Virus record (IMG/VR): IMGVR_UViG_3300036978_000083
Location: 1-31,299 of that record
Length of the DNA: 31,299 bases
Strand: one strand, 5' to 3'
Source: a virus
In this document: in pieces, positions 1 to 31,299 of the stretch
How positions within the stretch are numbered: position 1 is the first letter of the stretch
How the letters are laid out: every line of letters starts with the position of its first letter
Notes under the pieces: generated by a model
The model's input: the letters and a program-made list of their open reading frames with translations, nothing else
The model's database searches: none
What the model was told of the DNA's origin: nothing
Made by a program: the position numbers and the translations under genes

Positions 1-222
1 CATACTTCATGTGAGTAGTGCTATCATAATCCTCTATCTTGTATTGCAAGTTAATCTCAGCTGTTACCGGTCTATAGAGAATGCACATTAGTTCAGGCAT
101 CTGATGGGGGAAATTCTTGCTAAACTCAGATAGATCTAACCACTCTCCAAAGGTCATGCTTTTTAGATCAGGATGAAAGCCGAACTTAATTCCATCTATC
201 TCTATGAACTTCTGAAATATCT
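1..222. repeat. Terminal overlap, left copy (circular genome closure)
   Basis: These 222 bases are repeated at 31078-31299 with a single difference: A at 95 here, T at 31172 there. The repeat lies inside one coding frame (the tail-chaperone-like gene), and that gene is completed when the ends are joined. This is what assembly of a circular or circularly permuted genome gives. A true short direct terminal repeat is also possible, but it would have to lie inside a gene. Confidence 0.95.
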
Positions 223-421
223 TCTCGTCATTCTTTAAGCCTGCTGCATAGGTGCTCACTATCTTATCAATAGTAGGCATGTCTATCTTGCGAATGTCAT
301 CCCTCTTCAGTCCTGTGATGGCTGCTATCTGAGATATGCTATCTGTACCGGCAGCTATGAAGTCTACATAAGTACCCAGTGTCTGATCTGAATACTTAGT
401 GCTAATTATCTTCTCGCTCAT
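1..421 (-). CDS. Probable tail assembly chaperone, N-terminal part (continues at 31077)
   Basis: The ATG at 421-419 begins MSEKIISTKY and the frame stays open to base 1. Joining base 1 to 31077 continues the same frame to a stop at 30914, giving a 194-residue zero-frame product. The protein is soluble, with no signal peptide or membrane segment. The start overlaps the stop of the 68-residue gene upstream as ATGA, showing translational coupling. The chaperone assignment rests on the -1 frameshift arrangement near its 3' end, on its place just ahead of the tail genes, and on a resemblance of the frameshifted extension to chaperone C termini that I recognise from Bacteroidota phages. In that model it coats the tape measure while the tail tube polymerises. 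Function is an inference; the gene itself is certain. Confidence 0.8.
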   Translation of the reverse strand, partial: MSEKIISTKYSDQTLGTYVDFIAAGTDSISQIAAITGLKRDDIRKIDMPTIDKIVSTYAAGLKNDEKIFQKFIEIDGIKFGFHPDLKSMTFGEWLDLSEFSKNFPHQMPELMCILYRPVTAEINLQYKIEDYDSTTHMKY

Positions 422-7551: not shown

Positions 7552-8019
7552 TTAGTGATTTGCCAAATATAACAGAAATCTCTTCCACCAAGGCAATGCT
7601 ACTGCTTTTTTTGCTTTTCTTTTACTTCTAACTCTTACCGATTGAATCTCTTTAGGAAGATTTACCTCGCTGGGTAATGGCACTCTACCAATAAATGGGC
7701 TGTCTTTTTTCTGCTCATAAAAAGAAATAGCTTTTCGTTGTTCTTTTCTTTTTTTTTCATAGTTATATCTTAACTTTAAAAGCCTGTTATAATCTTTACG
7801 CTCTATAATTGGCTTTATGACCTCTATTTTATGACCGCTTACACGTCTAATTATTAAAGTCTTTTCAAAAAATACAGCCCAATGAGTTGTTAAATTTTTG
7901 GATTGTAGCGCATGAGTTGCTTTTTGACCAGCACTCATTAAATCTAAAGCCTGCTGTAATCTTTCAATAGTTACAGGCTGGCTCTTTCTTTTATCAAATT
8001 GCATTGTAGTTTGTTTCAT
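7552..8019 (-). CDS. Basic phage protein of unknown function, 155 residues
   Basis: A strongly basic protein: repeated Lys/Arg clusters include KRKSQPVTIERLQQALD near the start, NYEKKRKEQRKAISFYEQKK in the middle and RVRSKRKAKKAVALPWWKRF near the C terminus. The amphipathic end PWWKRFLLYLANH could touch membrane or nucleic acid. The charge suggests DNA or RNA binding. Its start is preceded by AACAATCAATAATC, the leader type shared by several early genes. No family is recognised. The composition is more A/T-rich than its neighbours. Confidence 0.65.
   Translation of the reverse strand: MKQTTMQFDKRKSQPVTIERLQQALDLMSAGQKATHALQSKNLTTHWAVFFEKTLIIRRVSGHKIEVIKPIIERKDYNRLLKLRYNYEKKRKEQRKAISFYEQKKDSPFIGRVPLPSEVNLPKEIQSVRVRSKRKAKKAVALPWWKRFLLYLANH
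7564..7591 (-). promoter_or_regulatory. Candidate Bacteroidota-type promoter
   Basis: Minus strand: TTG at 7591-7589, 17-base spacer, then TATATTTG at 7571-7564, a full match to TTG-N17-23-TAnnTTTG. A start near 7557 would lead straight to the ATG at 7539. It sits at the 3' end of the preceding gene, so it would add expression of the 107-residue, 247-residue and HTH genes. Confidence 0.45.
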
Positions 8020-12618: not shown

Positions 12619-14625
12619 TTAATTTGTTCCTGGGTATCTGCCTTGGTCGGGCATGTCAAACGGTCGAGTATTAGCTGTAGCAAAGTCTTTAGCTATATCT
12701 TTTAAAGGCATGCCTGCTCTGATTGCTTTTGCTACTGAGATAGGATCAGATGATTCTAAGCCGTTATCTTTTACAAATCTTCCCTTCTCACGTTTTCTGA
12801 AGTATACTCTACGCTCCCAGTTATGCTTACAATTAACTCCGCCTTTATATAACCATACAGAATAGGTAGCTCCATTGTGGCCCATGTTAGGATTCAGCTC
12901 ATTAGTATCTGATTCCATTTTAGTTAAATCTTCGTAACGGTATACATATCCATTACGTGCAGCGTTAGCCATTTGTCTACAGAACTTTCTACTCTTAGCG
13001 CTTGTATTTTTAGAGTAGGCATAACGCACTTTGTATAATCCGCTATCCATTTCAGATGGCTTATCAGGATCAGAGTAGCTTCTAACTGATGCAAGATTAA
13101 CAGGCTCAGCTTCGATAAGCTCCCACTCCTCCTCATCTACTATCTCGCCCTTATCATCTAAGAATTCGCACCACCAATTCTCATCCTCTTCGGTAAAGAT
13201 TGGCTTATCTGTGGGATCACTTAAATTAGTCTTTTTTTTTTGAGCAGATAGTTTAGCTACAGCGTTCCCTCCGGTAGCTTCAAACATTGCAGTAGCTACG
13301 TCTATAGGAAGTTGAAGGAATTGAACTAAAAATACAATGGCTTGTTCTTTAGTTAATGCTCCTGTCCCTACAGCTGCTACAATTTCTAAAGCGCTTGCTA
13401 TCTGTGCACCGTTATAAGTTACATCACTTACTGATGTGCCTGCTGGTGCTACCGGTGCAGCTGTGTTAGGATCAGTAGTTGCATTATCTGCAACAGTTGA
13501 ATCTATTGCTGCTGCTGCTGCATCCATCTCATCAGAGAATAAGTCGTTAGATTCAATATAAACATCAGCCATAATGCCCATACCTTTAAATACTTCCTCA
13601 ATACTATCTGTAACAATTTGCTGATATGGCTCAATTATATTCTTATTAAAAATTCTGTAAGCTTGTTTCATCTCATCAGCGTTACTCCCTAATCCTCCTG
13701 CATCACGAATACCAAAAAGTAAAGGTGATGTTACTCTGTGAGCGCCTAAGATGTTTTCTCTTGACTGAGTGCTTAACTCCATCCATTGCTTATCAGCATC
13801 GGACATAGGTACTAAGTCTAAACGTGGAGCTCTATCAGCAGATTCATTAAATGTAAATACTACTTTGCCTGCCTTCTTAGCACCTACCATAGTCTCCCAA
13901 TTTCTGCGAATAGCCATTTGCTCTTCGGGATCAGGAATACCGTTATTCATGTGCAAGAAATAGCTAGGTGCCATACCATTGCTTAAGAAAGCTCGGTAAA
14001 ATTCGCTGATTTCTCTTGTAATTTCTATGTAATTGATAGCACTATAGTAGTCAGGCTTGGGATAGTAAGCACTGCCTGGAGTCATTATCCCCACAAATAG
14101 CACCTGAGAAGGCTCATCTGCTTTTGTAGTTGGATTATACATCGGGATAAATGTCGGAATGTTCTTCTTTTTGCGCATATCATTCCAATCTTTAGAATAA
14201 TAAACACCAGGTATAACATCTTCATCATTAGAAACAGCCAATCTAACATTCTCATAAGGCAAATGATTAATCTTAGCAACTGTTGTTCTATCTACACTCC
14301 AAATAATCTCTAAGTAGTAACCACCTTGCATCTTAGCATCAAGCGTTATAGGCCTTCTGATTGTGTTTAATTTCAATCTGTCTATCTCACGTTGCGCTGT
14401 TGGATTAGTGCTCTTAAATTCCTTCCCTGCTATCATGAAAGCTATGCTCATGGTTAGTGCTGAGTGCACCGGTGAGCTATAGTATAAATCTATAAGGTAA
14501 TTCGGGAATGAGTTAGCTTCACCAAGCGTTACCCATCCCTTCGGAGTTTCTTTCTCGTTAGCCTCTTGAGGCATTGCTGCTCCCAAGTTAACAAGCATTG
14601 GCGCTGAGTGTGCTATCTTATCCAT
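12619..14625 (-). CDS. Portal protein with extra C-terminal domain
   Basis: Residues 1 to about 400 are a portal core, with SFPNYLIDLYYSSPVHSALT, a GGYYLEIIWSVDRTTVAKIN strand pair, PSQVLFVGIMTPGSAYYPKP, and RENILGAHRVTSPLLFGI, typical of the portal stem region. An Ala/Thr-rich part (about 370-410) and a run of four codons CAA-AAA-AAA-AAG (462-465) separate it from about 200 more residues. That tail contains RKFCRQMANAARNGYVYRYE and YKGGVNCKHNWERRVYFRKR, a Cys/His-Trp motif reminiscent of MuF/gp7-like head proteins. The total of 668 is longer than a standard portal. It starts eight bases inside the 136-residue gene. It is the dodecameric DNA gate; the tail may place a head-morphogenesis protein inside the capsid. 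Confidence 0.9.
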   Translation of the reverse strand: MDKIAHSAPMLVNLGAAMPQEANEKETPKGWVTLGEANSFPNYLIDLYYSSPVHSALTMSIAFMIAGKEFKSTNPTAQREIDRLKLNTIRRPITLDAKMQGGYYLEIIWSVDRTTVAKINHLPYENVRLAVSNDEDVIPGVYYSKDWNDMRKKKNIPTFIPMYNPTTKADEPSQVLFVGIMTPGSAYYPKPDYYSAINYIEITREISEFYRAFLSNGMAPSYFLHMNNGIPDPEEQMAIRRNWETMVGAKKAGKVVFTFNESADRAPRLDLVPMSDADKQWMELSTQSRENILGAHRVTSPLLFGIRDAGGLGSNADEMKQAYRIFNKNIIEPYQQIVTDSIEEVFKGMGIMADVYIESNDLFSDEMDAAAAAIDSTVADNATTDPNTAAPVAPAGTSVSDVTYNGAQIASALEIVAAVGTGALTKEQAIVFLVQFLQLPIDVATAMFEATGGNAVAKLSAQKKKTNLSDPTDKPIFTEEDENWWCEFLDDKGEIVDEEEWELIEAEPVNLASVRSYSDPDKPSEMDSGLYKVRYAYSKNTSAKSRKFCRQMANAARNGYVYRYEDLTKMESDTNELNPNMGHNGATYSVWLYKGGVNCKHNWERRVYFRKREKGRFVKDNGLESSDPISVAKAIRAGMPLKDIAKDFATANTRPFDMPDQGRYPGTN
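13231..13242 (-). promoter_or_regulatory. Candidate slippery site A_AAA_AAG in the portal gene
   Basis: Minus-strand codons read CAA AAA AAA AAG (ten A in a row). This contains an in-frame A_AAA_AAG, the E. coli dnaX-type slippery heptamer. A -1 slip would read Lys-Asp and then stop (GAC TAA), giving a 466-residue portal lacking the C-terminal domain. The +1 frame stops a few codons later. No downstream hairpin was verified. Confidence 0.35.
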
Positions 14626-17971: not shown

Positions 17972-20203
17972 TTATAAGTATGATTGGTCTATTATCTTTT
18001 GACGTGCCTCTAAAGCGTTGGCTACATTGCCTGCTAATACATAAGTCTCTAAACCACCTGGTGCATTATTCTGCAAATTCATTCCGCTGAAATCTATAGC
18101 CGGTGCGTTGGTGCCTGTTGGTGCATTTAGATTACCTCCACTTGGTGAAGGTGTATTACCTTGAAATTGTGTTTGATTAATCTTAACTATGTTAGCTATT
18201 CCTGCTGCTGCTAATGCTGCTGCTTTTACGAAGTTCATACCGGTTAACTGATCTTGCGGAACAGCTAACTGCTGAACTATACCCGAAGCCATAGCTATAG
18301 TAGCTTGAGCTTTCTGCATTAATTTGTTACGTTCAAACGTCTTACGCTGGCTTGCCTCATCTCCTTTAGCAGCTGCTTCATTTAAACTCATCAAAGCATC
18401 TAAGCCAATAGAAGCCATTTCAAAGCCTTTCTGTATATTGGCCATCCGCTTCTCTGCATCTTCCTTTCTATACTTCTCTCTAATCTCATTCTCTTTGCGT
18501 GCTTGCTCCTCTACTAATGCAGAACTATCTATCCCTGCTGCTTGAGCTTCAGATATAAGCTGCTGATAATATGTATCATTAGCTATTAACTCTTGCTGCT
18601 GTTTAGTGTATTGCTGCATGATGTTATTTTCATCTGCTGCATCAATAATAGCTTGTAAATCTTGTAACTCTTTTTGCTTATCTTTTAATCTTTCTGCTGC
18701 ATCTTCTTTAGCCTTAGCCTTTTTCTCATCATCTGCATCTTGATTTGCCTTAGCGTACTTCTCCAGTAAAAGCTGAAGCTCCATAGAATGCGCAATATTT
18801 AAAGCACGCATATCTTCTGCGCTTCTCTTATCTGCTTTATACGCATCCTCTCTTACTTTCTGAGCAGCGAGTAAATCATCTATCTCTCTCTTTTGCTCAG
18901 TCTTTTTAGAATCAGCTAAAGCCTTTTCTATGGCAGTTATTTCTTTGTCTACTGTTACAGCTTCATCTCTTATTCTTTTGCTCTCAGCATCTGCCTTAGC
19001 TTTTCTTTCCGCTGCTGCTGCCTTAGATTTAGCTATAGCCTCAAGCTCTTTCTCTGTCTTAACAGTATCTTTAGCTGCCTCTCCTGCATTCCAAATCTCA
19101 TCCTTATTATTTTGAAGTGAGATATTTTGATTAGTTAAAGATTGCTGCTCTAATTTTAACTTCTTTTCCAGCTCAGTATTACCCGAAGTTTGAGCCATCA
19201 ATATATCGTAATTCAGCTGCTTAATTCTTTCAGCATTATCTTGCTGCAACACGCTAAGCTCTTCAGTTCGTGCTTTGTATTCGCTAAATGCCTGATTTTG
19301 TAAAAGCTGTTTATTATACTGATCATCAGTGCTCGCACGAATTTTATCTAAGAGTGCTTGCGCATCAGTGTTAATCTTAACCTTACGAATCTCTAAATCA
19401 TTAATGGCTTGTAACTGCGCTTGCTGTGATTCTAAAAACTTGGCTTTATCTTCCTCAAGAATCGCTATCTTCATAGCAGTCTCAGCTTGCTTCTGCTTAT
19501 TCTTAAGCAATGCTAATTCTGTTTGCAAAATAGCAGCAGCTCCTGCTCCCAAAGCTTTCTGCAATGCCAGCTCTCTTGTTAACGCTTGCTCTTGAGATTT
19601 TAGCGCCTCTGCTTGCTTGTTTAGATTCTCAAGCATCTTGCTCTTACCGGTTACAAAGTCGCTCAGCTCTTTCCAATAAGCAATAACAGCCACAATAACA
19701 CCCACTAAAAGGAAGATAGGATTAGCTAAAACAGCTTTACCTAAAGCTTTTAATCCTGCTACTCCTGCTTGAAATGCAGCTTTTAAACCACTACCTAAAG
19801 CTGCTGTATCTACTCGTGCAAGATTGCCGCTGAATGTCTGAATGGATTGCGTTAAGCCTTCAAAGTCTAAGTTGCTAAGTTGCTCACCCATTATACCGAA
19901 GGTATTACTCATCCCCTCAATAGCAGGACCTGTATTACCTTTTACTGCCTCAGCAGCATCATTCATTCTATCCTTAAGCTCACCCATCTTAATAGATAGC
20001 TGATTGAATTTCTCAGTGCCTGGATCAAACTGATCCTGCTGTTTCTTTAAATCAGCATATTGAGCTTTTAATGTCTTAGTAGATTTCTCTACTGCTTTGG
20101 TAGCCGCATCGGTTTTTGCAAGCTCCTGATTGATATCCTCTAAACCTGTAAATGTACCCTCGTCATCAAACGAGAGTCTTAATATCATTTCTTGTGTAGC
20201 CAT
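17972..20203 (-). CDS. Tape measure protein
   Basis: The 743 residues are mostly coiled coil, rich in Ala, Lys, Glu and Gln (for example LKDKQKELQDLQAIIDAADE). A helical start reads TKTLKAQYADLKKQQDQ, a hydrophobic stretch near residues 155-178 includes AVLANPIFLLVGVIVAVIAY, and a Gly/Pro/Asn-rich end follows. This is the classic tape-measure layout; the hydrophobic part may insert into the host membrane. At about 0.15 nm per residue, the tail would be near 110 nm. Here the distal-tail genes precede it in transcription, whereas they normally follow it. It starts one base after the 65-residue gene's frame. Confidence 0.93.
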   Translation of the reverse strand: MATQEMILRLSFDDEGTFTGLEDINQELAKTDAATKAVEKSTKTLKAQYADLKKQQDQFDPGTEKFNQLSIKMGELKDRMNDAAEAVKGNTGPAIEGMSNTFGIMGEQLSNLDFEGLTQSIQTFSGNLARVDTAALGSGLKAAFQAGVAGLKALGKAVLANPIFLLVGVIVAVIAYWKELSDFVTGKSKMLENLNKQAEALKSQEQALTRELALQKALGAGAAAILQTELALLKNKQKQAETAMKIAILEEDKAKFLESQQAQLQAINDLEIRKVKINTDAQALLDKIRASTDDQYNKQLLQNQAFSEYKARTEELSVLQQDNAERIKQLNYDILMAQTSGNTELEKKLKLEQQSLTNQNISLQNNKDEIWNAGEAAKDTVKTEKELEAIAKSKAAAAERKAKADAESKRIRDEAVTVDKEITAIEKALADSKKTEQKREIDDLLAAQKVREDAYKADKRSAEDMRALNIAHSMELQLLLEKYAKANQDADDEKKAKAKEDAAERLKDKQKELQDLQAIIDAADENNIMQQYTKQQQELIANDTYYQQLISEAQAAGIDSSALVEEQARKENEIREKYRKEDAEKRMANIQKGFEMASIGLDALMSLNEAAAKGDEASQRKTFERNKLMQKAQATIAMASGIVQQLAVPQDQLTGMNFVKAAALAAAGIANIVKINQTQFQGNTPSPSGGNLNAPTGTNAPAIDFSGMNLQNNAPGGLETYVLAGNVANALEARQKIIDQSYL

Positions 20204-25572: not shown

Positions 25573-27771
25573 TTATCCTATTATTGTCCAACCTTTTGAT
25601 GTTATTATTAATCTATTTGCAGCAGTAAGACCTGCTGTTCCCGTTGCTGTTGTTATATTAATTGTTTTACCTATAACTGCTGGTTGAGCAGCCATATCAT
25701 TAAACAACTGTATTAAGTTAGCCGTAGACATATTAGTATTAGAAACATTTATTTGTGGAGATGATCCTGTCCATTGACCTGCTGACGTGTTTAATAATCT
25801 TACTGATTGAACATCTGTTCTTTGTGTAGATCCTTGACCATTAATTTGAAGATCTATTAGAGGGCATGAAAATGATATTGATAATAATCTAGAAAATGTA
25901 TTAGCCAATGCACTAACCAATGGTGTAGCAGTTAACGATCCTAACTTATCAAAATTATTTATAGTAGATAAATTAGAGCAGAATTGAAACATAACCTGTA
26001 CTGATGTCAATAAAGACATCTGATTTGTGGGGAATGTTATTGATTTCAAACTACTACAATTTTGAAATGCCGTTGAAAATGTAGTTACTGCAGAAGATAC
26101 AGTTGCTGGTAAAACAATAGTTTCTATTTTTCTACAATTAGCAAACATACCAAGAAAACTAGTACAAGCAGACATACTAGTAGGTAAGGTAACAGATACT
26201 AGAGAAGAGCATGCGCTAAACATTGTGTCAACATTTGTTACAGCGTTCATAGTTGAAGGAAATGTTACAGCTTCTAAATTAACACAGTTATTAAAGCATT
26301 GTGATAAAGTTGTGCAAGCGTTCATACTTGTGGGCATGTTTATCGTTTTCAATAAAGTACACTGTAAAAAAGTATTATTTAAATTAGTTAAACTATTTTG
26401 AACACCTGGAGACCAATTTAATGTCTTTAAAGAAACACAAGATTGAAATGTACTAGCTAAAGTAGTAAACAGATATGATGAGTTTATAGTTATACTTTCT
26501 AATGATCTACAATTTGAAAATACTGACGAAAAATTCACACCAGAAGAAGAAACATTAGAAGGTAAAGTAACATCAGTAAGATTTACACATCCAGAAAACA
26601 TAGCAGTCATGATAGTGCAAAAAGGCATGTCCGATTGAAAAACAACTCTTTTTAAATTTATACAACTACCAAACAAAGCACTTACACTAGTTGCACTAAA
26701 ATTTAAAGGCAAAACAATAGACTTTAAATTAGTATTGTTTGAAAAAACACTACTAAAAGTATATCTAGCATTTGAAGAACATGATGATGGAAAATATACG
26801 TTTTGAAGATTAGGGCAGCCAGCTATTCCCCCTTGAAAATTGACTGTTGTAGCACTTGCAAATGTTGGTAAACTTGTAAACCTAACCCATTCTATTGAAG
26901 TGCAATTATTAATGAAATTACTAAAATTTGTACAAGTATCAACAGATGGGAGTGTTACATTTTTTAAAGAATAGCAATTAGCAAAAACATTGGATAAATT
27001 AGTACAGCTATTAAGTGAAGTAGGAAAAGCAACAGATGTTAAAAAATAACAGTTGTAAAATGCCTGATTAAGAGAATTTATATTTATTGCATTTGAAGGT
27101 ATTACAACAGAACGTAAAGCATAACAGTTCATAAACGTCTGAGCAAATCCCGTTAAACTAGCAGCCGATGTAGGCATTACAACAACAGCAAGATTGAAAC
27201 ATTCTTGAAAAGTATATGACATGTCAGTCCATGTAATAACAGAAGGTAGTTTTGCATATTCTAAATAACTATAACTGCCTAAACCATTGCTGAAGCTATA
27301 GTAAGTTGCCATGCTTACTGTTTGAGTACCATCTCCATAATACATCTCTAAAACATAACAGGTAGTATATACACTACTACTATTAAGAGAAACTCGTACT
27401 GGAAGTATTCTACAGGCTGACAATACTGAAACACCTGTACCTGTAAAGTATATTCTAATTTTAAATGTTGTGTACCCTAAAGAGCAGGGAGTTCCTGTAC
27501 CTGGTGTATAAACATGTGTTGTATCAGTCTGAGTTGCTGCAGTAGTAAGAGTATCTGTTGTACCATCTCCCCAGTCAATAATTAAATTTTGAGATCCCGA
27601 TGTTCTACTAAATTGCGTTCTAATAGTGCATGAGGCATCATTTATATCAGACATTAAAAATTGAACTTCGTTTGCAGCATCTGTAATTACAGGCCAATCA
27701 ACAGGTCTTACATAAGGTGTAGGCTGAACTGTTCTACTAAAAAAATTCTGTACTGGTAAATTAAATGCCAT
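25573..27771 (-). CDS. BspA-type leucine-rich-repeat protein (putative host-contact protein)
   Basis: The 732 residues begin with MAFNLPVQNFFSRTVQPTPY and a PKD-like part holding LIIDWGDGTTDTL, then about 17 repeats of 24-25 residues with the core F-x-N-C-x-x-L-x-x-[VI]-x-[LF]-P. This is the BspA/LRR_5 pattern. The C terminus (LTAANRLIITSKGWTIIG) is typical of phage tail proteins. BspA repeats on bacterial surfaces bind host proteins; on a tail they could bind a receptor. The third codon position and overall composition are more A/T-rich than in the flanking genes, which suggests a recent import. It starts two bases after the fibre gene. Confidence 0.85.
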   Translation of the reverse strand: MAFNLPVQNFFSRTVQPTPYVRPVDWPVITDAANEVQFLMSDINDASCTIRTQFSRTSGSQNLIIDWGDGTTDTLTTAATQTDTTHVYTPGTGTPCSLGYTTFKIRIYFTGTGVSVLSACRILPVRVSLNSSSVYTTCYVLEMYYGDGTQTVSMATYYSFSNGLGSYSYLEYAKLPSVITWTDMSYTFQECFNLAVVVMPTSAASLTGFAQTFMNCYALRSVVIPSNAININSLNQAFYNCYFLTSVAFPTSLNSCTNLSNVFANCYSLKNVTLPSVDTCTNFSNFINNCTSIEWVRFTSLPTFASATTVNFQGGIAGCPNLQNVYFPSSCSSNARYTFSSVFSNNTNLKSIVLPLNFSATSVSALFGSCINLKRVVFQSDMPFCTIMTAMFSGCVNLTDVTLPSNVSSSGVNFSSVFSNCRSLESITINSSYLFTTLASTFQSCVSLKTLNWSPGVQNSLTNLNNTFLQCTLLKTINMPTSMNACTTLSQCFNNCVNLEAVTFPSTMNAVTNVDTMFSACSSLVSVTLPTSMSACTSFLGMFANCRKIETIVLPATVSSAVTTFSTAFQNCSSLKSITFPTNQMSLLTSVQVMFQFCSNLSTINNFDKLGSLTATPLVSALANTFSRLLSISFSCPLIDLQINGQGSTQRTDVQSVRLLNTSAGQWTGSSPQINVSNTNMSTANLIQLFNDMAAQPAVIGKTINITTATGTAGLTAANRLIITSKGWTIIG

Positions 27772-27773
27772 AG

Positions 27774-30743
27774 TTATACTGTTGGAAATATAGTTACTTC
27801 TCCTGTTATATTAGTTTGCGGTGGAAACAAAGAATAAAATGTACAACTTCCTGCTGTTACGTCAACTTGTGTTAACATACCGCAGGTAGTAACCTCTGAA
27901 TAACTAGCATTACCTGGAGTAAAATCTACTCGAGTATTAGTTGTTATATTAACATTTGAAAATGTATATGTATAATATCCACTTACTAAAACCCAGCTTG
28001 CAGCTGTTAGTGTCTGAGCTGTTAATTTATATATTGTACCCCCACCTCCGCCACCACCTGAATACTGCGGAATGTTTAATGTAGCACCTACCAAAGTAGC
28101 TGCGCCACTTGTTCCTGTTGTAGTTAAAGTGAGTGTGTCTTGCTTAGCGTTTAATGCTGTTTGCGTTGCAGTTGAGATAGGCTTGTTAAGATCGCTTGTG
28201 TTGTCTACATTGGCCAAACCTACTGCTGTTTTGTCTAATGTTTGGAAGGTCTTATCCCCTCTGTAATAATCGCCTGTTGTTCCTGCCGTAATCGTTGGCT
28301 CTACTGCTATGTTACCACTACCCAAAAGAGTAGTGCTATTGACAGTCTTTATATTAGTATTGCTAACGAGTAGATCTTGCTTGCCATTAAACGTTGTCCA
28401 ATCCGCAGAACTTAATGCGCCTCTATTCGCTGCGCTTGCTGTTGGAAGGTTAAACGTATGCGTACTTGTCGCTGATGAGATACCGAAGTCAGTGCCACTC
28501 GTTCCAGTTGCGAAGTTTTGCACCTGTGCCGTTAAGCCATTCAATGCAGTTAAGCCCGTTGAGAAAGTAGTAATGACTTGGCACAAATGACTATTTTCGG
28601 TGTGGAGTTTAATTGTCCTTCCCGAGTGCGTAACGTATATTCTTATTGCTAATCTATCAGTAGCCGCTAACGTTGTTTGTGGTACTGCTAATGCGCTCAT
28701 GTAGACATCTGTTACCGTTCCGTTAGTGATGCCTTCGGGAGTAGCTGAGTTAGACGCTATCAAAGACAATGCTGCTCCATCCCATTTGTATAACTCAATA
28801 TAAAATGAAGGAGTGCCACCGCTACTTGATGCGCTAAAATATGTTTCAAAGTTCCAATTTCCTGCTGGTATTTCTAACTGATTCGGTACGTTAGCATCTG
28901 TGATAAAAGACTGAATGTAACCATTTGCCGCTATTGTGAAATCTGTTCCTGCACCTAAGATAGGAGTTCTGTCCATTTCCTTAAACGCTACACCGCCAAA
29001 TGTTCCCTGCGCTACTGATCCATTTAAGTAGAAAGATAACGAAGCGCCACCGCCTGATGAAGCAGGGAAGTTAGCTAAACTGCCATCGCCTCTTACATAT
29101 TGAGATACTGTACCTGCGCCTGTAACTGCTAAAGTTCCCGAAGTGGTAACAGGGCTACTCGCTACACTAAATGCTGAAGGCATTGTTAAGCCCACACTTG
29201 TAACTGTTCCTCCACTTGAAGGCGCTGAGTTAGTTACTGTGAAGTTAGGATAAGTTCCTGTAACTCCAATACCTGTACCAGCTGTTAATGCTACTACTTG
29301 GTCAGGTGCTGTATTCGTTATTGTCTGATTAGGATATGCTCCTGTAATACTTATTCCTGTTCCTGCGCTTGGATTGTATTGAGCAGGTATAACAGGAAAT
29401 GTAGCTAAGCTACCATCACCTCTGAGATATTGCAGAGTAGTTCCAGTTGGTGTGTTAAACTTACCGTTAAAAATTAACCAATCACTCGAAAGTAAATATC
29501 CATTAGTCGTACCATTAGCAGATGACATAGATAGGTTAGGAGCAGTTCCTCCTGTAGATGACATTGGAGCAGTAGCCGTAACAGCCGTAACCGTTCCACC
29601 TGAAGGTGCATTATTGGTAATGGTAAAGTTCGGATATGTACCCGTTACTGCTATACCACTCCCTGCCGTCAAAGCCACTACCTGATCGGGAGCTGAGTTA
29701 GTTACCGTAATGCTACCGCTACTTGTTACCGGGCTACCGCTTACGCTGATCCCTGTGCCTGCCGTTACACCTACGCTTGTTACTGTTCCATTTGTCAGCG
29801 TTGGCTTGTTAAGAATTTGACTCACCCCACTTGTGCTATTCCAATCTGAATTAACCTGAGCAGCAGGGATAGTAGGCTTATTGAGAATCTGAGCTACTCC
29901 ACTAACTGCATTCCAATCGCTATTAACTTGGGCCGCTGGTATTGTAGGCTTGTTATCTAAATCATCATAGTCATTACTAAAGGCAGTAGCTCCTAAATCA
30001 GCAGTGTTAGCCTTTAAAGCTATCTCAGCTTGCAGAGCTGCAATGTCATCCACTATAGAAATGATAACAGCGCATTCAGGTAAATCTTCACAAGTTAAAC
30101 CACCTGCCTCAAGTACATGCCATCCTTTTACACCTTCAGCATCTGTACCATAGTAATAAGTATTGCCAGGTGTTTCCTCGTCATTAACTAATGAGACATT
30201 AAAGCCCTGCTGAGTGATGCTATTAATGAATGTAAGATAGTTATTTGCTTCGCTTGGTGAATCTGTAGGTGTGTTATAGTTCCAGCTTGCAGGGATAGAG
30301 CATGCACTCCAATCGTAATCTAAGCTCAGCTCTACTATTCCTGTTACCCCTGTTAGCGTGTGAGTGTACTGCTCTACAAATGGCTCAGCATTTACCGGGC
30401 GAGTAAGCACTACATCTGAGCCGAACATATTACCCAGGTAAATCTCGTTTATTAAATCTTGAAATATCAGTGAGCAGTCAGTAATACTTTCCGCTTGGTA
30501 GCCTGTCTTATCTTCCTTATCTCTTGGTAGATCGCTAATGAATATCTCAAAGCTGAAGCTCCGGGTACCTGGTGCGTAGTTAATAGCACGTGGCTTAACG
30601 TGCAGCCAAGGCCACTCTGCCTCTTTCTCTAAATCGGCTTGGCTAATCTCACCATGTGTAAACCTGCGCAGCTGAAAGTGTCCATCTGCAAATTGTCTAA
30701 AACGGTCTACTATGACGTTATATGTATAATTGATTGTGCTCAT
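27774..30743 (-). CDS. Large tail fibre-like protein with tandem repeats, 989 residues
   Basis: The N-terminal 150 residues are a globular domain with FRQFADGHFQLRRFTHGEIS and SFEIFISDLPRDKEDK, probably the part that anchors to the tail. Then come tandem repeats NKPTIPAAQ/VNSDWN, a Gly/Thr/Ser-rich repeat region with TAGTGI-x-V-[ST]-G motifs, and a beta-rich second half (PAGNWNFETYFSASSSG). A GGGGGG patch near residue 905 precedes a final domain, TAASWVLVSGYYTYTFSN. This layout fits a trimeric fibre or baseplate spike. It is the first gene after the chaperone-like gene in transcription and the LRR gene follows it. Confidence 0.8.
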   Translation of the reverse strand: MSTINYTYNVIVDRFRQFADGHFQLRRFTHGEISQADLEKEAEWPWLHVKPRAINYAPGTRSFSFEIFISDLPRDKEDKTGYQAESITDCSLIFQDLINEIYLGNMFGSDVVLTRPVNAEPFVEQYTHTLTGVTGIVELSLDYDWSACSIPASWNYNTPTDSPSEANNYLTFINSITQQGFNVSLVNDEETPGNTYYYGTDAEGVKGWHVLEAGGLTCEDLPECAVIISIVDDIAALQAEIALKANTADLGATAFSNDYDDLDNKPTIPAAQVNSDWNAVSGVAQILNKPTIPAAQVNSDWNSTSGVSQILNKPTLTNGTVTSVGVTAGTGISVSGSPVTSSGSITVTNSAPDQVVALTAGSGIAVTGTYPNFTITNNAPSGGTVTAVTATAPMSSTGGTAPNLSMSSANGTTNGYLLSSDWLIFNGKFNTPTGTTLQYLRGDGSLATFPVIPAQYNPSAGTGISITGAYPNQTITNTAPDQVVALTAGTGIGVTGTYPNFTVTNSAPSSGGTVTSVGLTMPSAFSVASSPVTTSGTLAVTGAGTVSQYVRGDGSLANFPASSGGGASLSFYLNGSVAQGTFGGVAFKEMDRTPILGAGTDFTIAANGYIQSFITDANVPNQLEIPAGNWNFETYFSASSSGGTPSFYIELYKWDGAALSLIASNSATPEGITNGTVTDVYMSALAVPQTTLAATDRLAIRIYVTHSGRTIKLHTENSHLCQVITTFSTGLTALNGLTAQVQNFATGTSGTDFGISSATSTHTFNLPTASAANRGALSSADWTTFNGKQDLLVSNTNIKTVNSTTLLGSGNIAVEPTITAGTTGDYYRGDKTFQTLDKTAVGLANVDNTSDLNKPISTATQTALNAKQDTLTLTTTGTSGAATLVGATLNIPQYSGGGGGGGTIYKLTAQTLTAASWVLVSGYYTYTFSNVNITTNTRVDFTPGNASYSEVTTCGMLTQVDVTAGSCTFYSLFPPQTNITGEVTIFPTV
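29803..29946. repeat. Two 72-base tandem repeats in the fibre gene
   Basis: GGCTTGTT (29803), GGCTTATT (29875) and GGCTTGTT (29947) mark a 72-base period. Each unit encodes 24 residues: Asn-Lys-Pro-Thr-Ile, then PAAQVNSDWN, then a Ser-Gly-Val-x-Gln-Ile-Leu end. The units are similar but not identical. Similar shorter repeats of the TAGTGI type follow in the gene. Confidence 0.75.
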
Positions 30744-30758
30744 ATCTTATAGTGTAAA

Positions 30759-31022
30759 TTAAGACAGCTTTTGTTGTAATGCGTTTGCGTAATCCATAGC
30801 GTAGGTTAAATGGGTAAATATTGTGGATGCTCTTGTGTTGGTTATAGCATCAAACTTAGTTATATCTCTCTCAGCCATCTCCTCAATTACGTGCCACCAT
30901 TGGTAAACTGATGCTAAGGTTTCACCTCTTCGGCTAACTGAGTTATCTCCCTCTTCAACATCTCCAGCTCCTGCTCTAAATATTCGGGTGTACTGTTCAC
31001 TAAATCGTTTCTGAGTGTCGAA
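30759..31022 (-). CDS. -1 frame extension of the tail chaperone (frameshift product)
   Basis: Slipping back one base on the T9 run gives an open frame from 31022 to a TAA at 30761-30759: 87 residues with no interruption. The fused product would be 159 + 87 = 246 residues. The distal half contains VYQWWHVIEEMAERDITKFD, followed by a further amphipathic helix ending NALQQKLS. The pattern aromatic pair, acidic helix, Asp-Ile-x-Lys-Phe-Asp is one I associate with C-terminal parts of tail chaperones in Bacteroidota phages. An independent 39-codon gene starting at the ATG at 30877 is possible, but the frame is open about 50 codons further upstream and the coding character begins before that ATG. 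This is analogous to the lambda G-T fusion. Confidence 0.6.
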   Translation of the reverse strand, partial: FDTQKRFSEQYTRIFRAGAGDVEEGDNSVSRRGETLASVYQWWHVIEEMAERDITKFDAITNTRASTIFTHLTYAMDYANALQQKLS

Positions 31023-31299
31023 AAAAAAAGCAGCGCAGCATTCACATTGGCTAAATTCATCTTCCTCATTTGAGGCACATACTTCATGTGAGTAGTGCTA
31101 TCATAATCCTCTATCTTGTATTGCAAGTTAATCTCAGCTGTTACCGGTCTATAGAGAATGCACATTAGTTCTGGCATCTGATGGGGGAAATTCTTGCTAA
31201 ACTCAGATAGATCTAACCACTCTCCAAAGGTCATGCTTTTTAGATCAGGATGAAAGCCGAACTTAATTCCATCTATCTCTATGAACTTCTGAAATATCT
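30914..31299 (-). CDS. Probable tail assembly chaperone, C-terminal part, zero frame
   Basis: This is the 3' portion of the gene whose ATG is at 421; the first 222 bases repeat 1-222. The true start lies beyond the right edge, so the internal ATG at 31234 is not the start. Zero-frame codons read Asn-Ala-Ala-Leu-Leu-Phe-Phe-Ser at 31022-31045 across a run of nine T (31029-31021, minus strand). They continue into a charged helix-like C terminus, EYLEQELEMLKREITQLAEE, ending at a TAG at 30916-30914. Without frameshifting the product is 194 residues. The following 39 codons before the fibre gene are covered only by the -1 frame (see the extension entry). Confidence 0.8.
   Translation of the reverse strand, partial: IFQKFIEIDGIKFGFHPDLKSMTFGEWLDLSEFSKNFPHQMPELMCILYRPVTAEINLQYKIEDYDSTTHMKYVPQMRKMNLANVNAALLFFSTLRNDLVNSTPEYLEQELEMLKREITQLAEEVKP
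31019..31030 (-). promoter_or_regulatory. Candidate -1 frameshift slippery site (T9)
   Basis: On the minus strand the bases are C, nine T, then CG. In the zero frame they read CTT TTT TTT TCG, so a T_TTT_TTT heptamer sits in frame and permits tandem slippage of Phe tRNAs into the -1 frame. The -1 frame then runs 87 codons. Transcriptional slippage on the same homopolymer could give the same protein. I see no strong downstream hairpin, only a weak CACT/AGTG pairing. Confidence 0.55.
31078..31299. repeat. Terminal overlap, right copy (circular genome closure)
   Basis: Second copy of bases 1-222, with T at 31172 where the left copy has A at 95. Removing one copy leaves a unit genome of 31,077 bp. 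The mismatch is compatible with strain variation in the sampled population or with a read error at the contig edge. Confidence 0.95.

Follow-up and report, generated by a model that had tools for sequence, protein, structure and literature searches.

A two-product phage gene with a conserved run of at least nine T, possibly switched by RNA polymerase slippage

Tail chaperones made by frameshifting are a classic example of ribosomal recoding. The gpG and gpGT proteins of phage lambda and related frameshifted tail chaperones have a common N-terminus, a C-terminal extension read in the −1 frame and a location in the tail module, and the gene described here is like them in all three respects. Two products can also arise from a single gene through slippage on a homopolymer. 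In Shigella flexneri mxiE, a U-run unites two overlapping frames, and the longer protein comes from mRNAs into which one nucleotide has been inserted (PMC1088944). Thermus thermophilus dnaX and IS-element transposase genes (A9/T9) likewise obtain two products from a nine-base homopolymer (PMC1088944). In many bacteria, selection against slippage shows itself once runs reach nine, and a 9A or 9T run whose length homologues preserve is very likely a site of purposeful slippage in transcription (Baranov et al. 2005, PMC1088944).

The window, that is, the whole stretch of DNA analysed, comprises the 31,299 nucleotides of IMG/VR virus record IMGVR_UViG_3300036978_000083. Its two ends share a 222 bp overlap with a single mismatch; the gene has therefore been cut by the contig ends, in a genome that is either circular or terminally redundant. 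The lone mismatch (95 versus 31172) lies at a third codon position, CCT in one case and CCA in the other, and encodes Pro either way; it is therefore likely a population variant or an error. Rejoining the halves at the overlap yields, on the minus strand, a zero frame of 194 codons that runs from the ATG at 421 through position 1 to its TAG. This start matches that of complete relatives, and the ATG usually picked, at 31234, is internal. Codons 157–160 of the zero frame are CTT TTT TTT TCG, with the nine T read from 31029 to 31021. From 31022 the −1 frame continues without a stop through 87 codons, to 30762, and gives a fusion of 246 residues. The extension leaves 15 bases before the ATG of the downstream fibre gene at 30743, instead of 170. 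The in-frame run, the open −1 frame, the gap that it fills and the lengths of both products thus agree with the original prediction. That prediction also held that a run of eight or ten T would join the frames outright; ten would, but eight leads into the +1 frame, and the other joining length is seven. The features are listed in Table 1.

Table 1. Features of the frameshift locus and its surroundings in the window
Feature	Position	Strand	Basis
Terminal repeat	copy 1, 1-222; copy 2, 31078-31299		222 bp overlap with 1 mismatch; unites the gene halves
Frameshift gene, 5' part, codons 1-140	2..421	minus	ORF reaching the contig end; start ATG 421-419
Zero-frame 3' part	30914..31297	minus	stop TAG 30916-30914; whole product 194 aa
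T9 slippage run (U9 in mRNA), candidate	31021..31029	minus	at least T9 in 266/266 distinct sequences
T_TTT_TTT heptamer, in frame within T9 (ribosomal alternative)	31022..31028	minus	sequence reading
−1 frame extension, 87 codons + TAA	30759..31022	minus	stop TAA 30761-30759; WWH...DITKFD C-terminal domain; dN/dS 0.044 past the zero-frame stop
Dual-coding overlap, zero and −1 frames	30914..31021	minus	lowered synonymous variation in both frames; period-3 variability shift
Next gene downstream, fibre-like protein	27774..30743	minus	PHROG tail fibre match
Putative tape measure, about 10.5 kb downstream	17972..20203	minus	protein length and composition; no family match

A scan of IMG/VR yielded 79 close relatives, of which 66 distinct sequences were used for variability and dN/dS. 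One 99% identical relative, L003 (IMGVR_UViG_3300034168_000141), lies on a contig of 61,462 bases, roughly double the usual genome size of 30-31 kb, and is possibly a concatemer or a misassembly. The nine T are present in 79/79 close relatives; in one, a substitution of the next base extends the run to a tenth T and leaves the frame unchanged. The zero frame ends at 194 residues in all but one relative, which is truncated by a contig end, and its stop is a TAG at the same codon in 66/66 distinct sequences. The −1 frame reaches residue 246 in every complete relative except two. These two, L040 and L073, carry an internal −1-frame stop after fusion residues 183 and 232, respectively, and may be errors or defective copies.

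The pattern of substitution follows the two frames. Among the 66 sequences, third-position variability is 0.36 in the zero frame before the site and 0.33 in the −1 frame beyond the zero-frame stop, a stretch in which the other two frames contain stops in every sequence; dN/dS for the same two regions is 0.074 and 0.044. Within the overlap, variability is low at all codon positions and its codon-position phase changes. Synonymous variation is lowered in both frames there, with pS values of 0.12 and 0.19 compared with 0.57 outside, and by this comparison both frames are constrained in the overlap. Retention of the run and a low Ka/Ks beyond the zero-frame stop are what the original prediction anticipated; of the contrary signs that it named, loss of the run was seen in no close relative and −1-frame stops in 2/79. 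The site, the two frames and the selection acting on them can thus be read from the alignments themselves. Because the site, both frames and both stops are conserved, comparative evidence strongly supports a real, programmed −1 fusion, about as firmly as sequence data allow. The fusion proposed in the original prediction stands, while the ribosomal mechanism that it implied becomes less certain, given a run of at least nine T family-wide.

Wider searches relied on alignments that place distant members first and on query peptides located away from the slip site, so that the run was not selected for by the search. They added 13 P12024-like loci, then 80, 79 and 48 more (46 of the 48 contain the site), together with prophages from Flavobacteriaceae and other bacterial genomes. 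Counting close and distant members whose site falls inside the contig, 300 loci with 266 distinct gene sequences were obtained. The family, which consists of viruses of Bacteroidetes bacteria, spans down to about 20% protein identity and forms 87 clusters that are less than 70% identical to one another, or 35 at less than 50%. The run is T9 in 224 of the distinct sequences, T10 in 40 and T12 in 2, and a T7 or T8 run occurs in none of the 300 loci. Isolated members are the Nonlabens phages P12024S and P12024L, which hold a 27% identical relative of the window gene. Gene 40 of P12024L contains the same CTT TTT TTT run, and its −1 frame traverses the separately annotated gene 41. The zero-frame part corresponds to PHROG 32199 and the −1 part to PHROG 38404, both of function unknown in PHROGs. 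As judged from these sequences, the frameshift is ancient and unannotated, and a T-only site is the rule throughout the family.

These features suggest a model in which one gene makes two products, the switch is made at T9 by polymerase slippage and the products are probably a tail-chaperone pair. We give this model as a whole an even chance of being correct. The two proteins would have about 158 N-terminal residues in common. A long helix would form the end of the standard product, of 194 residues, and in the minority product of 246 residues an 87-residue −1-frame domain would replace that end. RNA polymerase would slip on the nine-base rU:dA hybrid and leave some of the mRNAs with one extra U. 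The resulting U10 mRNA would place the −1 frame in phase, and ordinary ribosomes would then read the extension. A ribosomal −1 slip on U_UUU_UUU would give the same protein and may contribute. Both products would probably act as a tail-assembly chaperone pair at a fixed ratio, analogous to lambda gpG/gpGT. We infer the polymerase as the agent, the ratio of the products and their chaperone role.

The AlphaFold model of the zero-frame product has a mean pLDDT of 88 and a mixed alpha-beta structure, with a long C-terminal helix that runs across the site. The −1 part is modelled as helical and with less certainty (pLDDT 73). Fold searches returned matches to uncharacterised phage proteins alone, and several of these match both models, which hints at single-frame homologues. 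None of the fold relatives is annotated, and the sole annotated chaperone match in a viral fold library was not significant (E 0.37). Searches of solved structures by sequence and by fold gave nothing meaningful, and an NCBIfam search gave no match. In Pfam, 5/85 members match Phage_TAC_7 (PF10109) below threshold, with a best E of 0.0041; one inspected match scored 17.4 bits against a cut-off of 25. Profile comparison with lambda G, lambda T and Mu gp41 detected no similarity, using single-sequence templates of low power, and the hhalign probability to lambda G or T was below 1%.

The notion of single-frame homologues was followed to a terminase-adjacent gene. In L326 (4001-4561) and L327, a single-frame ORF without a T run follows the terminase gene, and its C-terminal part matches the −1 domain (P 8e-6 for the L326 ORF against the −1 domain profile). 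The N-terminal part of the frameshift gene is not matched, and the ORF is at most a partial homologue. The protein of Flavobacterium phage 6H gene L330:10352-10927 weakly matches the zero-frame product in fold; this gene lacks T9, and downstream of it lies a stretch that is open in a different frame.

The chaperone role is an analogy rather than a demonstrated membership, since the Phage_TAC_7 matches are sub-threshold and similarity to lambda G/T or Mu gp41 is absent. A frameshifted pair with another role, such as head-tail joining or baseplate assembly, is an appreciable possibility, although it falls well short of an even chance. The missing homology to characterised chaperones and the lack of annotated fold relatives are consistent with such a role, as is the position of the gene in P12024 and in prophages, where it adjoins terminase and neck genes and not the tape measure. 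The P12024L gene that matches tape-measure PHROGs lies several genes downstream of it. In the window the distance to the putative tape measure bears out the earlier statement that the site lies far from that gene. Against another role, two products with a −1 extension are typical of tail chaperones, and Phage_TAC_7 is the Pfam family with the most matches, weak as they are. The frameshift gene also lies near tail-completion genes. Support for the tail-chaperone identity comes from architecture, genome position and the weak Phage_TAC_7 matches, without homology to lambda G/T, and the role is a plausible and reasonable analogy, though a weakly supported one. Elsewhere, at 25573-27771, the window encodes a 732-aa protein of regular repeats, leucine-rich (BspA-like) by eye, which matches PHROG 9915, of function unknown in PHROGs.

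The length of the run bears on the mechanism. At least nine T in 266/266 relatives suggests that RNA polymerase rather than the ribosome may slip. The ribosomal alternative is tandem tRNA-Phe slippage on an in-frame U_UUU_UUU, as in lambda G-GT. An in-frame T_TTT_TTT is indeed present in every member (any T9 holds one, whatever its register), the shift is in the −1 direction in all, and the lambda tail-chaperone frameshift is ribosomal (PMC5009743). However, U_UUU_UUU is weak in E. coli, where it shifts far less readily than A_AAA_AAG (Atkins et al. 2016, PMC5009743), and in none of the 266 distinct sequences is the T run exchanged for a different X_XXY_YYZ heptamer. Furthermore, a ribosomal T_TTT_TTT slip requires T7 in one register, whereas at least nine T are retained across three codon registers. 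The flanking bases compensate to nine: in the eight sequences, from several lineages, that have GGT or GCT as the upstream codon, TTT always serves as the −1 Phe codon and the total is again nine.

This compensation was assessed by a permutation in which upstream flanks were shuffled against downstream flanks, per identity cluster. Runs shorter than nine numbered 0 among the 87 clusters below 70% identity compared with 6.5 expected (P<1e-5), and the same permutation gave P=4e-5 for the 35 clusters below 50% and P=0.015 for 12 clusters below 40%; the clusters share ancestry and are not fully independent. Some of the T9 conservation is explained by the amino acids of the flanking codons, a hydrophobic NTT before and TTN after. 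Across the flanking genes (345 kb), T≥9 occurs 0 times compared with 5.3 expected from synonymous shuffles, A≥9 occurs 10 times compared with 31 expected, and T7/T8 is depleted in every register. Such A/T runs are not strictly forbidden, as the window has A9 and A10 in other genes. The A10 lies at 13232-13241 in the portal gene (sense strand) and the A9 at 7749-7757 in the gene at 7552-8019; each is a possible slippage or mutation hot spot.

No upstream or downstream RNA structure signal was detected by pseudoknot-free folding of 71 diverse members and the clade alignment, with a mean folding z of about −0.1 downstream and 0.1 upstream. A downstream stimulator is not obligatory for ribosomal −1 frameshifting. 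Polymerase slippage is favoured by the retention of at least nine T across registers, the absence of T≥9 from the flanking genes, the lack of a fold and the published rules, and we regard the ribosomal route as an appreciable possibility well short of an even chance. A transcript with one added U and a −1 ribosomal slip yield the identical junction peptide (LFFFD), so peptide mass spectrometry cannot tell the two routes apart.

Two further explanations do away with the fusion or with the shift. An overlapping pair of independently started genes, with re-initiation giving access to the −1 frame, would accord with P12024L, where the annotation has the −1 part as a separate gene of 55 aa beginning at the zero-frame stop. 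In the clade of the window, however, constraint on the −1 frame sets in at the T run, well ahead of that stop, and re-initiation has no need of a nearly invariant slip site; this arrangement is very improbable. An assembly or sequencing error that hides a plain single frame with 7 or 10 T, conceivable for an error-prone homopolymer in an environmental contig, is rejected with near certainty, as T9-T12 with the same −1 relation recurs in hundreds of independent contigs, the isolate P12024L and bacterial genome records, and errors could not produce dual-frame constraint with conserved stops.

An unannotated frameshift is therefore common to hundreds of environmental phages and to two isolates held in public collections, always at a site of at least nine T. 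That a diverse group of Bacteroidetes phages sets its tail-chaperone ratio by polymerase slippage at T≥9, and not by ribosomal frameshifting, is a tentative proposal from these comparisons, to which we give somewhat less than an even chance. If it is true, the same end as in ribosomal recoding is reached by a different machine. The frame would then be chosen at the level of the mRNA pool, perhaps under the influence of the host polymerase and of nucleotide levels. In a search of a library of open-access papers, only reviews and prediction tools connected transcriptional slippage with Bacteroidetes phages or tail chaperones. The annotation can be corrected in either case, as gene callers split the protein.

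A comparison with the known systems brings out what is particular to this gene. Unlike lambda gpG/gpGT, it has a T9-T12 run and never a mixed heptamer as its site, it does not adjoin the tape measure, its sequence gives no detectable match to lambda G, T or Mu gp41, and its frameshift is probably polymerase-driven. The product of mxiE is a bacterial regulator, whereas the run described here sits in a phage gene with a probable assembly function and persists throughout a very wide family. Slippage in dnaX shortens the product and slippage in IS elements makes transposase; here it would make a C-terminally extended phage protein. Finally, PHROGs lists 32199 and 38404, represented by genes 40 and 41 of P12024S/L, as unrelated families and has the frameshift unannotated, but the two are parts of the same gene, and P12024L carries the same T9.
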